Below, piece by piece: positions 135 through 46,960 of a stretch of DNA of 59,167 bases. This DNA is from an uncultured Alphaproteobacteria bacterium (lineage in GTDB: Bacteria > Pseudomonadota > Alphaproteobacteria > RF32 > CAG-239): contig CANRJO010000006.1 of NCBI GenBank assembly GCA_947630965.1, forward strand, positions 1-59,167, given 5' to 3'. The translations under genes were made by a program, and so were the position numbers. The notes below the pieces were generated by a model. The model saw only the letters and a program-made list of their open reading frames with translations, searched no databases and had not been told where the DNA came from. Within the stretch, counting starts at the first letter, position 1, and each line of letters begins with the position of its first letter.

Positions 135-1541
135 CTAAAATCTAAAGTATATAAATGGGTTGTAGGTTGATGCTGCAATGACGCAGGTTGATAATATAAA
201 TAAAATTATCAACCATGTGTTGATACAACATTTTAAAACTTTATGTTTTTCATTGACAGATAATATGCAGCGAAACAGCGGTAATGAACAAATAACACCT
301 ACTGTTAAGGCAAGGATTTCTAGTCTGTCTATGTAATATAAGGAAGTGTAAAGTGTTGTGGTGTTTTTCTTTAAGCCGATCATGGTTGAAAGATATTTCA
401 AGGCATAGTTTATGTTCTCAGAACGAAATATGACCCATCCGAGCATAAAAATGAAAATGCAATAAAGATGTTGAAATGTTTTTAAAAAGATGCCACCTTG
501 TTTTTTATGTATGTTTGTTATTTTTTCAAAAATGATAAATAAGCCGTGCCAAAGTCCCCAAACGATGAAATTCCAACTTGCGCCATGCCATAAGCCTGTT
601 ACAAAAAATACAAGCAGTAAGTTAAAATAATGACGTATTTTTGAAACTCGATTTCCGCCAAGCGGTATGTAAAGATATTCTTTAAACCAAGAAGAAAGAG
701 AAATATGCCACCTGCGCCAAAATTCTGTAATTGATTTTGAAATATAAGGATAATTGAAGTTTTCTAAAAATTGAAAACCAAAAATGTAACCCAAGCCAAT
801 CGCCATATCGGAGTATCCTGAGAAATCGTAATAAAGCTGTAAGGTGTAAGATACGGCGCCCAACCAAGAAAGTGGCAAATCAATTTGATCTACGGGCTGT
901 GTGAAGATTTTATCAGCAATAGCGCCTACCGTGTTGGCAAGTAACATTTTTTTGGAAAGGCCGATAATAAAGCGTTTGATGCCGTAAACAACTTTTGGGA
1001 AGTCTACATCGCGATTGCTGATTTGCTCATCAACATCACGATATTTGACAATCGGGCCGGCAATCAGTTGCGGAAAAAGGCAAATGTAAAGTGCCAACTT
1101 GTAAATGTTGCGCTGCACTTTAACCTCGCCACGATAAACGTCTATCAGGTAACTTAAGGCCTGAAAGGTGTAAAATGAAATACCAATCGGCATGATGACC
1201 TTGATAAAATGAATGTCGGATTTAAAAAGTCCGTTGATGTTTTCAACAACAAAGTTGAAATATTTGAAATAAAACAAAAAGCTTAAATTTAAGACGATTG
1301 TTAATGCTAAAATTTCTTTCCTGTGCGTGTTTTTCTTGCTCCGGCTGATGTAGTTTGCTCCGATATAATTAATTAAAATCGTTAAAAGCATAATCGCTAG
1401 ATAACTCGGTTCACCCCAAGCATAAAATATAATACTCGCGATGAGCAAGACGTGATTTTTTAGCCCTTGGCGCACGCAAAGATAAATCGCGCAAACAATC
1501 GGCAGGAAAACGTATATAAATGTCATAGATGAAAATAGCAT
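135..1541 (-). CDS. MBOAT family O-acyltransferase, AlgI-like
   Basis: 468 residues, a polytopic membrane protein with many hydrophobic segments. The start MLFSSMTFIYVFLP is the typical AlgI/DltB-family opening. The block GLWHGASWNFIVWGLWHG at about residues 313-330 holds the conserved MBOAT histidine. Other family landmarks are the YDFSGYSDMAIGLG block and the following TEFWRRWHISLSSWFKEYLYIPLGG stretch. Family members move acyl (usually acetyl) groups across the inner membrane for O-acylation of alginate, teichoic acid or other glycans. The gene is last in a minus-strand cluster, 3 bases after an AlgX/AlgJ-like gene, which is the usual partner. The modified glycan cannot be named. Family call is firm; acetyl as donor group is inference. 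Confidence 0.92.
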   Translation of the reverse strand: MLFSSMTFIYVFLPIVCAIYLCVRQGLKNHVLLIASIIFYAWGEPSYLAIMLLTILINYIGANYISRSKKNTHRKEILALTIVLNLSFLFYFKYFNFVVENINGLFKSDIHFIKVIMPIGISFYTFQALSYLIDVYRGEVKVQRNIYKLALYICLFPQLIAGPIVKYRDVDEQISNRDVDFPKVVYGIKRFIIGLSKKMLLANTVGAIADKIFTQPVDQIDLPLSWLGAVSYTLQLYYDFSGYSDMAIGLGYIFGFQFLENFNYPYISKSITEFWRRWHISLSSWFKEYLYIPLGGNRVSKIRHYFNLLLVFFVTGLWHGASWNFIVWGLWHGLFIIFEKITNIHKKQGGIFLKTFQHLYCIFIFMLGWVIFRSENINYALKYLSTMIGLKKNTTTLYTSLYYIDRLEILALTVGVICSLPLFRCILSVNEKHKVLKCCINTWLIILFILSTCVIAASTYNPFIYFRF

Positions 1542-1544
1542 TGT

Positions 1545-3364
1545 TTATTCCTTCGTTAAATTGACGAGAGATGGCAAGTTTCTGGCAGCGATGGATAAAA
1601 TAAAAACGTCTGGTTTGTAATCTAAAATGTCTTTTTTGTAACGTTTGAGGACTTTGAAAACCTCCGGTTCCTGAAAACCAAGGTTAAGCCGATAAAAAAT
1701 GAGCTCATGAAAGCTGTAAGGTAAGAATTGCATTAAGTTTTCATTCATACTTGTACCTGCCACAAAAACTTTGAGGTTATTGTCAATGTTTTCAATTTTG
1801 TATTGCTTTATGGCATAGCCACTTTTTTTCATGATTTTGAAGTCTGCGTGAGTTTTGGGGTTGTAATATTTATAGGGCGTGTCCAGTACTTCTTTCTCGT
1901 TGATATTTTCTGGATGAAGATTATTTAACTTAAAACTTGTTCCAATACTGAATTTTCTATCCCAGTCGCTTCGAACTTTATTGTTGTAAAAAACGTCAAA
2001 CTCATCCTCGTTTGCAATTTTAATGTTCGGATATTTTTTTTGAATTTCCTTAATTAATTCGGCATATCCTTGATAAGCGCCCCATTCCGTCCAATGGTGT
2101 TCTGTTTTGAAGTAAACTAAGTTTTCCGCCGATGCTTTTTGAAGCGCTTCAAGCGGATAAATGATTGGGAAAGTCGCGTTCTTTTTAAGAAAATCAATGG
2201 TCGAAATGTTGAAAAAAGTTTCTTTATGATTCCAAAACTCAGGTTTGTAGAGCCTGTTGAATTTTTTGTATAAGTCTATTTGCTCTGGTACAATAAAAAG
2301 ATAAAATTTGATGTCATTTTCTTCCAAGAATTTTTGTAATTCTTGAAGAGAAACTAAAATTTCTTTATCTTTATCATGAGGCAGCGGTCTGTGATTAATT
2401 TGCCATTGATCATAACCCCAATGTGTCTTTTGATCAAAGCCTCCTTTGTCATTTTTGATTATTGAATTTGCTTTCTCTACTTCAGTATAAACGTGAAGTA
2501 ATTTATCTCTTCCTCTAAAACGGTCGTTAAACCAGTTTTCAAATTGTTTTGTATAATTGGTGTTGAAGGTATTGTTGACAATTAGGGTGGGGAAGGTTGC
2601 TAACATACGGTTTTCACGCATGTCTTTTGTTTCTTTGGAAATCTGGCTCATCGGGATAAATAACAGAATAACAAACGCCACCAAAAACACAATGTCAATT
2701 CGGCTGTGATGTTTCAAAATTTTGTATTGCGCTAAATATTGCACGATTTGGTAGGAAAAGAAAAATGCCAAAATAAAGACACTTAAAAACATCAGCGGGT
2801 TGAAATGAAAAAGCTCTTTTATTTCTTTATACGTCCAATGATGTCTTCGGATATCGGCTACAATTTCCACTACTTCACCATCGTGAACGTCCAAGGTATA
2901 ATCAAAAGGCTTTTTGTTCCAAACAGTCTTCTGCTCTGAAAAGAGGGGTTTGTTGTTGACTTTAAGGTTTTGATAATCCACAAAAATCTGGTATTTGTGG
3001 GTGTTGTCCTTTTGGGAGGAACCGCTTAAGTGTATTTTAACACGTTGATTTCCGAAAGTTTTAAATTTAAAGGTGTGGTGTTTCCATCTGGAAGATATTT
3101 TTTCTGTCAGGAGCAGGGTGTTTTTATCGGGCTTTATACATTGCTTGTAAGCGTCTTTTGGGGACAGAATCTCAAGATGTCCGTTGGAATTCCCCCCCCC
3201 CCAATGCCGGTTATTTCTATGAGGGCTCTTTTATTGCTGAAGCCGCTTCTGTAAAGGCTATTAAACATGTTGGGCACGCCATATAAGGGTGCAAACATGC
3301 CGACAATCAAGAATGTTAAAATTAAGCTGATAAACAGACGCTTTTTGCCGATATTATTCATCAA
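1545..3364 (-). CDS. AlgX/AlgJ-like O-acetyltransferase, phase-variable, frame OFF (copy 1)
   Basis: Two reading frames make one gene. The 5' part starts at ATG 3364 (MMNNIGKKRLFISLIL, one membrane segment) and reaches a run of 11 G on the coding strand (3192-3202). In this sequence the frame then ends after 76 codons. With 12 G (or 9) it continues without a stop into the 3' part, giving about 606 residues. The 3' part has two membrane segments, then the motif ENRMLATFP, FENWFNDRFRGRDKLL and the block KTEHHWTEWGAYQGY, typical of the SGNH-like AlgX/AlgJ/DHHW family that O-acetylates exported polysaccharide in the periplasm. It lies 3 bases before the AlgI-like gene. A GTG at 2981 could give a shorter product but would leave out the N-terminal anchor. 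An assembly error in the tract cannot be excluded. Confidence 0.85.
3192..3202. repeat. poly-C/G tract (11), phase-variation switch in copy 1
   Basis: Eleven C on the plus strand (G on the coding strand) lie at about codon 55 of the AlgX-like gene, where the two frames meet. Runs this long are not expected by chance at this base composition. Confidence 0.85.
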
Positions 3365-3458
3365 TTATTCCTCAATGGTTCCAAATCTAATTTAGTGTAT
3401 CATAAAAATATATCTGGCTATGTCAAGAGAAAAAAAATCAGTTTGTGAAAAGCATTGT

Positions 3459-5284
3459 TTATTCCTTCGTTAAATTGACGAGAGATGGCAAGTTTCCGGC
3501 AGCAATGGATAAAATAAAAACGTCTGGTTTGAAAGCTAAAATCTCTTTTTTGTAGCGTTTAAGAAGTTTGTAGACGTCTTCCACCTTGACATCTATAACG
3601 CTGTTTAACCGATAATAAATAAGTTCGTGGAAGCTATAAGGTAAAAATTGCATTAAGTTTTCATTCATACTTGTACCCGTGATCAGAACTTTGAGGTTAT
3701 TATTGCTGTTTTTATTTTTGTAATGTTTTGTTTTATAGCCTTTTTTATCCGTTATTTTGAGCTCTGCAGGCGTTTTAGGCGTGTAATATTTATAAGGTGT
3801 GTCTAGCACTTCTTTCTCGTTGATGTTTCCAGAACCTAGATTAAGCAAGTAAAAACTTTCACCAATGCCAAAACCTCTGCCCCAATCACCCCGAATTTTA
3901 TTGTTGTAAAAAATGTCAAACTCATCCTCGTTTGCAATTTTAATGTTCGGATATTTTTTTTGAATTTCCTTAATTAATTCGGCATATCCTTGATAAGCGC
4001 CCCATTCCGTCCAATGGTGTTCTGTTTTGAAGTAAACTAAGTTTTCCGCCGATGCTTTTTGAAGCGCTTCAAGCGGATAAATGATTGGGAAAGTCGCGTT
4101 CTTTTTAAGAAAATCAATGGTCGAAATATTAATGGAACTTTCTGCTTGTCGCCAAAAATCTGACTTGTGCAAGCTGTCGAAATTTTTGTATAAGTCTAAT
4201 TTTTCAGGTGTCACAAAAACATAAAATTCAATGTTGTTTTCTTTCAAAAATTTCTGCAGATTTTGGAGAGCTGATAAAATTTCTTTATCCTTTTGCATGG
4301 AAAGTGGTTTGTGAGAAATTTGCCATTGATCAAAAGTCCAATGTGTCTTTTGATCGTAGCTTCCTTTATCGCTTTTGATTATTGAATTTGCTTTCTCTAC
4401 TTTAGTATAAACGTGAAGTAATTTATCTCTTCCTCTAAAACGGTCGTTGAACCAGTTTTCAAACTGTTTTGTGTAATTGGTGTTGAAAGTGTTGTTGACA
4501 ATTAGGGTGGGGAAGGTTGCTAACATACGGTTTTCACGCATGTCTTTTGTTTCTTTGGAAATCTGGCTCATCGGGATAAATAACAGAATAACAAACGCCA
4601 CCAAAAACACAATGTCAATTCGGCTGTGATGTTTCAAAATTTTGTATTGCGCTAAATATTGCACGATTTGGTAGGAAAAGAAAAATGCCAAAATAAAGAC
4701 ACTTAAAAACATCAGCGGGTTGAAATGAAAAAGCTCTTTTATTTCTTTATACGTCCAATGATGTCTTCGGATATCGGCTACAATTTCCACTACTTCACCA
4801 TCGTGAACGTCCAAGGTATAATCAAAAGGCTTTTTGTTCCAAACAGTCTTCTGCTCTGAAAAGAGGGGTTTGTTGTTGACTTTAAGGTTTTGATAATCCA
4901 CAAAAATCTGGTATTTGTGGGTGTTGTCCTTTTGGGAGGAACCGCTTAAGTGTATTTTAACACGTTGATTTCCGAAAGTTTTAAATTTAAAGGTGTGGTG
5001 TTTCCATCTGGAAGATATTTTTTCTGTCAGGAGCAGGGTGTTTTTATCGGGCTTTATACATTGCTTGTAAGCGTCTTTTGGGGACAGAATCTCAAGATGT
5101 CCGTTGGAATTCCCCCCCCCCCAATGCCGGTTATTTCTATGAGGGCTCTTTTATTGCTGAAGCCGCTTCTGTAAAGGCTATTAAACATGTTGGGCACGCC
5201 ATATAAGGGTGCAAACATGCCGACAATCAAGAATGTTAAAATTAAGCTGATAAACAGACGCTTTTTGCCGATATTATTCATCAA
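3459..5284 (-). CDS. AlgX/AlgJ-like O-acetyltransferase, phase-variable, frame OFF (copy 2)
   Basis: Tandem paralogue of 1545-3364 with the same design: N-terminal anchor from ATG 5284, an 11-G tract at 5112-5122, then the long frame with two more membrane segments and the KTEHHWTEWGAYQGY block. The full frame would give about 608 residues with 12 or 9 G; as written it stops at codon 77. The first ~165 residues of the long part and the HHWTEW block match copy 1 almost exactly. Two segments (about residues 180-255 and 330-450 of the long frame) differ by many substitutions, a mosaic that suggests a variable, perhaps substrate-facing, surface. It is the first gene of the cluster, so its leader (5285-5460) probably carries the promoter. 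Confidence 0.85.
5112..5122. repeat. poly-C/G tract (11), phase-variation switch in copy 2
   Basis: Same length, position and flanks as the tract in copy 1. Both genes are therefore in the same OFF register in this assembly. Confidence 0.85.
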
Positions 5285-5384
5285 TTATTCCTCAATGGTT
5301 CCAAATCTAATTTAGTGTATCATAAAAATATATCTGGCTATGTCAAGAGAAAATTTTTGACGCTTAAGATAATTTGTGCGTTTG

Positions 5385-19324: not shown

Positions 19325-19897
19325 AGCTCCACTTGTGGCAAACCAATGCCTCAAGAATTAGATTTGTTACTTTCGCCTAATTAAGCAGCGATTGCAACAG
19401 GTGCAAAATTATCATTTGCATTCATTTATTTTGAACCGGTAACGGTGGTTTCTCGCCGAACACAGAATGCATCTTTATTGTTGTCCTGTCAAACCTATTT
19501 CGCCCCCTCGAAAATGTGCTAAAGCGCTTTCATGTTTGGGATTTTTTCGCTCATTTACCCATTTTGTAAACTTCGCTCAAAAATCCCTGCGCAGCAAAGC
19601 ACTTTATCACATTTTCAACAAACTCCGTGCTTGCTGCCTTTCATGCTTGGAATTTTTTCGCTCATTTACTCCCTTTGTAAACTTCGCTCAAAAATCCCTG
19701 CGCAGCAAAGCACTTTATCACATTTTCAACAGACTCCGTGCTTGCTGCCTTTCATGCTTGGAATTTTTTCGCTCATTTACTCCCTTTGTAAACTTTGCTC
19801 AAAAATCCCTTTAAATTGGTGGAGGCGCCGGGTACTGCCCCCGGGTCCAATACACCTATTCCATGCTTCTTTTCGTGTCAAAGTCGGTTGCCCGACT
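19325..19897 (-). ncRNA. ssrA: tmRNA, circularly permuted two-piece form
   Basis: Read on the minus strand. The acceptor piece comes first (about 19897-19817): a T arm with 5-base stem CCGGG/CCCGG, then CGCCTCC-A-CCA, with CCA encoded at 19819-19817. An intervening segment (19816-19508) follows. The coding piece starts GGGGGCG at 19507, which pairs with CGCCTCC to make a 7-base acceptor stem with G3-U70, the AlaRS identity pair. The tag frame is at 19419-19381: GCA through TAA encodes ANDNFAPVAIAA, a clear alphaproteobacterial tag (ANDNFA...AA). The order acceptor-spacer-coding is that of Alphaproteobacteria, where the spacer is cut out to leave two RNAs. The spacer carries 111-base tandem repeats. 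Outer ends are estimated. Confidence 0.92.
19531..19810. repeat. 111-bp tandem repeats in the tmRNA spacer
   Basis: Units start at 19531, 19642 and 19753 with exact period 111; the third is cut at about 58 bases. Units 2 and 3 are almost identical and unit 1 has a few changes. The repeats fill the segment removed from the tmRNA precursor. Because 111 is a multiple of three, they also create long spurious frames. Confidence 0.92.
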
Positions 19898-45151: not shown

Positions 45152-46960
45152 TTAAGCCTTTGCTTTTATCTTGAGAATGGGAAGGTGACCAAATAAAAGA
45201 ATTTTGGTCTTTTTACCTTTGGTCATCATCTTTAAGACAGTTAAGCCGAAAACCTTTATTTGCCGATGAAACCACGGGCGTGGCAAAGGTATATAATCTT
45301 GGTGCTCCAAATCTGATGCGTGCATGATGTTTTTAAAAGCCTCTTTATCCGTTTGTGTCGGAATTTCACATAATATGTTCGTCCAGTCCGTTAAGAGGTC
45401 GGCGTTTAGAAACAATTCTGATTTTTTAAAAATACGGTTCATGACATGCGCAAAAGAAACAATACCAGCTGATAAATCAGGATAAATTTTAATTCTTTCC
45501 TGTTCTTGAGGCGTTATGTTTTTAAAGACGACCTTGCTTTTTTCAATTTTTTCCGCCGGCGGGGTAGGGGCGGTCATAAACAGCTCCATCATATTCCAAT
45601 CGGAAAACTTACGCGAAACCTTTGGCTGAAAAGTTTGGGTTATGTATTGCGATTTATCGATTTGCGGATGAGGCCATATGACCCAATAATAGCCGTGTAT
45701 CTCTTTGTCAGGAAGCCCAATTCCTAGGGCTTTTTGAGCGGAAAATGAGGAAGTTCCGCTATCAATCAGCGCCACTTTTTTCTCGGCAATCTGAAAAGAG
45801 GCTAAATATCTTTGATAACTTTTTCTTTCTTGAAGAGCCAACTTTTTATAAAGAGCTCTGTTTGCCGCCATAAACTTACGCCCTTCTTCACAGGTTTTTA
45901 TTGAAGGCGTGTTCTTTGCCAAGAAAGAGTCTTTTGAGCTGAAATATGATAAAATGCTTTTGAGTGTGCTTAAGGCTTGTTTTTCATTTAATTTATTCGT
46001 TTGCAGATTGTCTGAAGAGCAAACCAAATTAACGATTCTTGGGGCATAAAAATAGTGCGACTTGATCTCTTTGTTTTTGATGATGTCAAAAACTTTTTGC
46101 AGAGAATAGCCGTCGCGTGCCACAAAGAGGGCGTTTTGAATGCCGTCTTTTTCAAGCTGACGGGCAAGCCATTGCATATAACCATAAACAACAGGGCCGC
46201 CATATTGAAATCCGAAATCTTGCCAATAATTTCCGGTTTTGCTGACCTCATATATAGCTAGACTTCCCAAGAGAATTGAAGCGCCTAATTTATCGGCGTT
46301 TAATTTTTTAAATCGGGCAGCGCGAGGGTTACTTTGAAGTAATTGCGCAAGGGGTGTGATGTAATGATATGCCAATAAGCCCGCAAGGTGCGCGAGGGAA
46401 ACATCGGAATGTTCGTTATCGCCAATATGCAGAATTTTTTCCGGCGAAAGGTTTAAATCATGACAAACGTATTGATAAAGGTTACCCGTGTGTTTGGTCA
46501 GCTTCATTTCAGAAGAAACATAAAGTTTCTCGTAGCCGCTTACCCCCCCCCTTGACAATAATTCAGCTAAAAATTGACGTGATAAATACATATCGGAAAT
46601 GATGATTAAGCGTTTGCCTAAAGAGCGGGCATAGTCAAAAATCTGTTTGACTTCCAGATTGGGTTGAGAAACCTCTGCTTCCCATTCAAGTTCCTTTTCT
46701 TTGAAGTTTTGAAAAGATTCAGAAATTTGCTCATAAATTTCATCTAAGGAGACTTCTTCCTTTTCCCGATGAAGCTTTCGGATTGTCTTTTCAGCTTCAA
46801 TGCGTGCAGTGGCAAAACCAGTGGCATGATATGCTTCTTCCATGTGTCTGAATAAATCAGTGGGCTTTAGGTAAGGACGCAACAATAAGGTGTCAAAAAT
46901 ATCAAAAGATATGACTTCCGCTTTGTTGATTTTATTTTTAAGATCATCTGATAATATCAT
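45152..46960 (-). CDS. HAD-domain protein of surface-glycan type, with internal G tract (ON)
   Basis: 602 residues. An N-terminal HAD-like domain (~1-210) has motif I DIFDTLL at 20-26, the motif II-type IISDMYLS at about 155, and motif IV HIGDNEHSD at about 200. The nucleophile and second Asp of motif I are both present (D20, D23). The C-terminal ~380 residues contain VVYGYMQWLARQLEKDGIQNALFVARDGY, seen in large HAD proteins found in capsule, LPS and exopolysaccharide clusters; it may be a transferase part. A 9-G run at about codon 137 keeps the frame open here, but a one-base slip would truncate the protein in its HAD domain. Confidence 0.8.
   Translation of the reverse strand: MILSDDLKNKINKAEVISFDIFDTLLLRPYLKPTDLFRHMEEAYHATGFATARIEAEKTIRKLHREKEEVSLDEIYEQISESFQNFKEKELEWEAEVSQPNLEVKQIFDYARSLGKRLIIISDMYLSRQFLAELLSRGGVSGYEKLYVSSEMKLTKHTGNLYQYVCHDLNLSPEKILHIGDNEHSDVSLAHLAGLLAYHYITPLAQLLQSNPRAARFKKLNADKLGASILLGSLAIYEVSKTGNYWQDFGFQYGGPVVYGYMQWLARQLEKDGIQNALFVARDGYSLQKVFDIIKNKEIKSHYFYAPRIVNLVCSSDNLQTNKLNEKQALSTLKSILSYFSSKDSFLAKNTPSIKTCEEGRKFMAANRALYKKLALQERKSYQRYLASFQIAEKKVALIDSGTSSFSAQKALGIGLPDKEIHGYYWVIWPHPQIDKSQYITQTFQPKVSRKFSDWNMMELFMTAPTPPAEKIEKSKVVFKNITPQEQERIKIYPDLSAGIVSFAHVMNRIFKKSELFLNADLLTDWTNILCEIPTQTDKEAFKNIMHASDLEHQDYIPLPRPWFHRQIKVFGLTVLKMMTKGKKTKILLFGHLPILKIKAKA
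46543..46551. repeat. poly-C/G tract (9) in the HAD gene
   Basis: Nine C on the plus strand, coding R-G-G-V in the current frame. It is the only other G/C run of eight or more in the window besides the two AlgX-like tracts. Confidence 0.75.

Follow-up and report, generated by a model that had tools for sequence, protein, structure and literature searches.

Two AlgX-like genes lying in tandem in the DNA of an uncultured alphaproteobacterium are each broken exactly at a run of eleven G residues. The best explanation of this arrangement, and a well-supported one, is that the SGNH partner of an MBOAT acyltransferase undergoes slipped-strand phase variation. Both genes are very probably contingency loci, in which slippage on the G run toggles a membrane-anchored SGNH acyltransferase that works with the adjacent MBOAT protein.

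The two genes are located on the minus strand of the window, i.e. the whole stretch of 59,167 nucleotides that was analysed, beside a single gene for an MBOAT O-acyltransferase (AlgI/DltB/PatA-like; 135-1541, minus strand; PF03062, E 9e-31), which is the last gene of the set. Gene A (3459-5284) comprises an N-terminal frame (5123-5284) and a C-terminal frame (3459-5111), and gene B (1545-3364) is likewise composed of frames 3203-3364 and 1545-3191. In both genes the frames are out of register at the tract, which reads C11 on the plus strand and occupies positions 5112-5122 in gene A and 3192-3202 in gene B, where it joins the N-terminal anchor and a periplasmic beta-domain. The 5' frame before the tract has 54 codons, counted from a TTG, and includes the N-terminal membrane anchor; with 11 G it stops after 76 amino acids in each gene. 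The long 3' frames of 548 and 550 codons are out of register with it, and any length of the tract divisible by three gives totals of 606 and 608 residues, or one less if the count starts from the ATG directly after the TTG. A first-pass annotation of this DNA had reported the two 11-G runs, a stop at codon 77 and, with 12 G, a joined frame of about 606 and 608 residues. On re-reading the sequence, the positions and lengths of the runs proved exact and the frames behaved as described; its statement that both genes are OFF holds for the assembled sequence only. Simple-sequence contingency loci are recognized by a homopolymer of at least 8-9 nt that lies within a gene and determines its reading frame, and this is what both window genes carry.

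Copies A and B are 100% identical over ~780 nt including the tract, positions 2621-3400 (5' part of gene B) being repeated at 4541-5320 (5' part of gene A). Because the tract lies inside this stretch, the equal tract lengths of A and B amount to one observation and not to two independent ones. The identity could have its origin in gene conversion, in a recent duplication or in a repeat consensus made during assembly. A third copy with another tract length was not found in the source genome. The 3' parts of the genes have diverged to 84% protein identity over 478 amino acids, and a dN/dS of ~0.29 between them in this region indicates that both copies have been under purifying selection. This bears on the view that the frameshifts are permanent and that both genes are pseudogenes heading for loss, which would agree with the broken frames in the only assembly of the species. 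We consider it the least probable of the alternatives and very improbable indeed, as the marks of a pseudogene, relaxed selection together with further disabling changes, are lacking: apart from the tract there is no break in 548 and 550 codons.

The source genome (G000) is a 1.52-Mb draft in 102 contigs, in which we located tracts by pattern searches and from the sequence stretches around them. There are 11 runs of at least 9 G/C, against ~0.7 expected under a second-order Markov model, and three of at least 11 G/C, against 0.02 expected under the same model. Most of the 11 runs are within surface or glycan genes. Besides genes A and B, broken frames were seen in a gene for a membrane sulfatase-fold transferase (phosphoethanolamine-transferase-like; L001:1792-3478, G000:C1), whose two halves are put out of register by a run of 9 C, in a third AlgX gene with 9 G (G000:C25) and in the genes for two cysteine-rich secreted proteins. 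The gene for RgpF and a TupA-type ATP-grasp gene with a tract of 12 nt are intact, and a HAD-domain gene in the window (45152-46960, minus strand) is in frame across its 9-G tract (46543-46551, minus strand). The remaining tracts belong to a gene for a long surface-type protein and, outside genes, to one intergenic repeat. In the AlgX gene on G000:C25 the frame is interrupted once more, upstream of the tract; this is what decay would produce and is a point in favour of the pseudogene view. An intergenic repeat with a 10-G run and similar flanks occurs in both this genome and its sister species (L003:2746-2755 and L048:3000-3009), and the window also contains a 111-bp tandem repeat of 2.6 copies with 95% matches (19527-19810).

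The one other genome of the genus that we compared, the rabbit gut MAG Lapin-001__bin79 (G001), represents this sister species. Its tracts of at least 9 nt fill 51 rows (~49 loci), where at most ~0.6 would be expected, with 32 of 9 nt, 16 of 10 nt, two of 11 nt and one of 12 nt; about 20 lie in a single 32-kb glycan locus. The genes concerned encode glycosyltransferases, epimerases, pyruvyl and hexapeptide transferases, two AlgX proteins and a C5 DNA methylase. Of the 45 tracts that lie within or next to coding frames, 21 are part of a single open frame and the other 24 are not, the latter number being an upper bound for the OFF state since some may sit at gene edges. Such an excess over chance, concentrated in surface genes, is characteristic of contingency loci. 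As a cause of slippage, loss of mismatch repair was rejected, full-length MutS and MutL being encoded in both genomes; a repair defect that would raise slippage is thus lacking, which is a point against phase variation. A further contig of the source assembly (G000:C60, L158), possibly a binning contaminant, carries another AlgX-like gene and a second, partial mutL. The methylase of G001 (G001:C34, L057:2934-3968), a C5 cytosine enzyme, has a 10-G tract at about codon 9 and is out of frame, which makes it a candidate phase-variable methyltransferase (phasevarion).

The AlgX orthologue of the window genes in G001 carries a tract of 10 G at this site, the 3' flank also being the same; it forms a single open frame of 590 amino acids (ON), followed by the MBOAT gene. 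The check in related genomes that the first-pass annotation had proposed therefore gave 10 G in G001 versus 11 in the window at the orthologous site, and the in-frame orthologue is further evidence against permanent frameshifts. The second AlgX/MBOAT pair of G001 also has 10 G and is in frame; its counterpart in G000 has 9 G and is broken, with an additional break upstream. The HAD gene has 9 G in both species, and its frame is intact in G000 but broken at the tract in G001. The MBOAT genes of the two species (window 135-1541 and L053:4744-6201) are 92-100% identical on the DNA level in the first 280 codons and ~50-64% identical thereafter. This mosaic indicates that the locus also recombines.

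Length differences were also found within the G001 assembly. The ends of contigs C1 and C22 are identical over 115 nt except for the tract, which has 10 nt in one and 12 in the other, in a fucosyltransferase-type gene; the ends of C18 and C36 are identical over 103 nt except for a tract of 9 versus 10 nt, in a GDP-fucose-synthase-type gene. An assembler break of this kind can arise when reads support both lengths. Part of the difference could come from PCR or sequencing stutter, and stutter during library preparation is the main alternative here. These DNA-level differences are also relevant to a model in which the DNA does not switch and the proteins are made constitutively at a low level because transcription or translation slips on the G run. 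Slippage of RNA polymerase or of the ribosome can indeed occur on long homopolymers; such a model, however, does not need lengths that differ between contig ends and between orthologues, and we hold it to be improbable.

Of 152 family genomes, 113 are without runs of at least 10 G/C, and most AlgX-like genes from other members of the family are free of tracts. Three AlgX genes, those of G135 and G137 (one genus) and of G061 (another genus), have 11, 10 and 9 G, respectively, at one orthologous site, which is in front of a conserved W(F/Y)ND motif and differs from the site in the window genes. Each of the three is broken exactly on the tract, and that no break lies elsewhere again argues against decay. 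Tract length thus differs between relatives (10 versus 11; 11, 10 and 9) and between contig ends of G001, as in contingency loci, with the window species represented by one assembly. Across five family genomes, six of the eight tract-bearing AlgX-like genes are out of frame, whereas other tract genes in those same assemblies are in frame. This contrast speaks against an assembly or sequencing error that conceals a true multiple of three and two intact genes. Homopolymers are error-prone, and the identical stretch common to both copies has to be resolved by a short-read assembler; length errors, however, cannot create the existence, the enrichment or the placement of tracts, and a hypermutable tract would still be there if the consensus were in frame. 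To such an error we assign the same low probability as to slippage on the RNA or ribosome level. Slipped-strand phase variation, the reading given at first pass, accounts for the in-frame G001 orthologue with its other length, for the enrichment of tracts in glycan and surface genes with mixed frame states, for G001 contig ends differing only in tract length and for the 11, 10 and 9 G at one AlgX site in three species.

A similar arrangement occurs outside the phylum. In the rabbit Gastranaerophilales MAG Lapin-015__bin9, four AlgX-like genes in tandem are located upstream of one MBOAT gene (L076:3803-12082, CANQLG010000003.1). Their C runs, which occupy corresponding sites, measure 9, 10, 9 and 9 nt, and the frames are OFF, OFF, ON and OFF. 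This genome has ~50 runs of at least 9 G/C. The AlgX/SGNH enzyme type has thus probably gained slippage tracts more than once. Among other proteins, we noted two membrane proteins resembling acyltransferase-3, encoded at L112:2370-3441 (G158:C7) and in L109 (G020:C17), each broken at an 11-G run.

The AlgX-like identity given at first pass is corroborated by matches of the 3' frames of A and B to PF16822 (AlgX acetyltransferase) and PF14286 (DHHW); NCBIfam gave no match for the AlgX-like proteins. An AlphaFold model of the intact G001 orthologue, built from 14 homologues (mean pLDDT 68, catalytic part mostly 80-93), has a helix of membrane-span length at its N-terminus, followed by a beta-domain, two further helices of this kind and a C-terminal domain. 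In a Foldseek search the C-terminal part matched PatB1, a DHHW protein, AlgJ and AlgX, with E values of 3e-10 to 4e-7 for PatB1, AlgJ and AlgX. The glycines encoded by the tract belong to a loop, modelled with low confidence, that connects two beta-domain strands, and according to the model this loop is likely to be a place tolerant of length changes. The active-site His and Ser are conserved in the window copies. In both, the Asp of the DxHW motif is replaced by Glu (TEHHW), which is a point against the main reading; G001 and most relatives with the motif have Asp at this position, and Glu is also found in homologues such as those in L076 and L085. An MBOAT gene (PF03062) adjoins the SGNH gene of AlgX type (PF16822) in G001, G135 and the Gastranaerophilales locus as well, so this synteny is kept. 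Genes A and B are therefore predicted to encode AlgX/AlgJ/PatB-like SGNH O-acyltransferases.

The first-pass annotation had gone further and named O-acetylation of a surface glycan. Domain matches of both proteins and the predicted fold support the predicted O-acyl transfer to a glycan. The tract proteins may be phase-variable and yet transfer a non-acetyl group, or have a target different from a surface polysaccharide, e.g. peptidoglycan. MBOAT/SGNH pairs are involved in the modification of alginate, cellulose, peptidoglycan and teichoic acids, the MBOAT protein matches DltB below the curated cut-off, and the best fold match, PatB1, is a peptidoglycan transferase. On the other hand, the G001 pair lies inside a glycan locus, where it adjoins a fucosyltransferase-type gene and other sugar genes. 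We regard such a different substrate or target as rather unlikely, albeit clearly less so than the alternatives discussed above; it is compatible with the switch and alters its target only.

A phase-variable system of this type could operate as follows. Slippage of DNA polymerase on the G run would alter the tract length by one or a few bases, presumably in a reversible manner, and only with multiples of three would the anchor and the catalytic domain be read as one protein. The cell would thus make copy A, copy B, both or neither, and each membrane-anchored SGNH acyltransferase would work with the single adjacent MBOAT protein. Since A and B share identical 5' halves but have different catalytic halves, a switch between them could alter how, besides whether, a surface glycan is acylated. 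Genes A and B would then belong to a larger set of G-tract switches, spread over the genome, in the glycan and surface genes of the genus, with evasion of phage, antibody or host lectins as the possible benefit. A broader idea, to which we give somewhat less than an even chance, is a combinatorial acyl-code switch: SGNH acyltransferases encoded in tandem, each with a hypermutable tract of its own, would share one MBOAT acyl donor, slippage would pick the specificity module that acts on the surface glycan, and the system would have arisen separately in gut Alphaproteobacteria, at several gene sites, and in gut Gastranaerophilales.

Genomes rich in G tracts have been described mainly for pathogens of mucosal surfaces and for a small number of commensals. 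The two uncultured gut lineages considered here belong to different phyla and have ~50 tracts each, and the SGNH partner of the MBOAT protein appears to be a repeated target. They offer a testable case of gut commensals that diversify the acylation of surface glycans by slippage, which bears on phage resistance, on recognition by IgA and lectins and on the interpretation of frameshifts in such genes when they come from metagenome-assembled genomes.

The loci resemble the poly-G loci of Campylobacter, Helicobacter and Neisseria in that the frame of surface or glycan genes is set by G/C runs, mostly 9-10 nt long (in G001, 32 of 51 have 9 nt and 16 of 51 have 10 nt). They differ in their host, an uncultured gut alphaproteobacterium with mutS and mutL; C. 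jejuni and H. pylori are not known to have the MutS/MutL repair pathway. Among Campylobacter poly-G tracts, 52% are 9G and 30% are 10G (PMC6321876). Another gut commensal, Bifidobacterium breve, controls a surface structure, its pili, by replication slippage at an intragenic G tract (PMC9187656), but in this Gram-positive organism few loci are concerned, whereas here dozens of loci, mostly glycan genes, have tracts. On/off switching of surface-glycan acetylation, as predicted here, is known from the phase-variable AT3 proteins encoded by H. influenzae oafA and Salmonella oafB, the latter being switched by DNA methylation (PMC9558356); in our case the switched part is the SGNH partner of an MBOAT system, present in tandem copies. 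The AlgI-AlgJ/AlgX and PatA-PatB systems also combine an MBOAT protein with an SGNH protein of the same fold (PMC4148444, PMC12148441), which in the present loci has an extra N-terminal anchor, a beta-domain and two more membrane helices. In the literature searched we found no phase variation of these systems and no paper on a phase-variable MBOAT/SGNH pair or on phase variation through slippage in gut Alphaproteobacteria or Gastranaerophilales; among Alphaproteobacteria, Bartonella badA, which varies via recombination or repeat slippage, came closest. The class of mechanism is thus known, and other enzymes are known to O-acetylate in a phase-variable manner; what appears to be new is the occurrence in these lineages, the large number of tracts and the tandem switchable SGNH genes that share one MBOAT gene.
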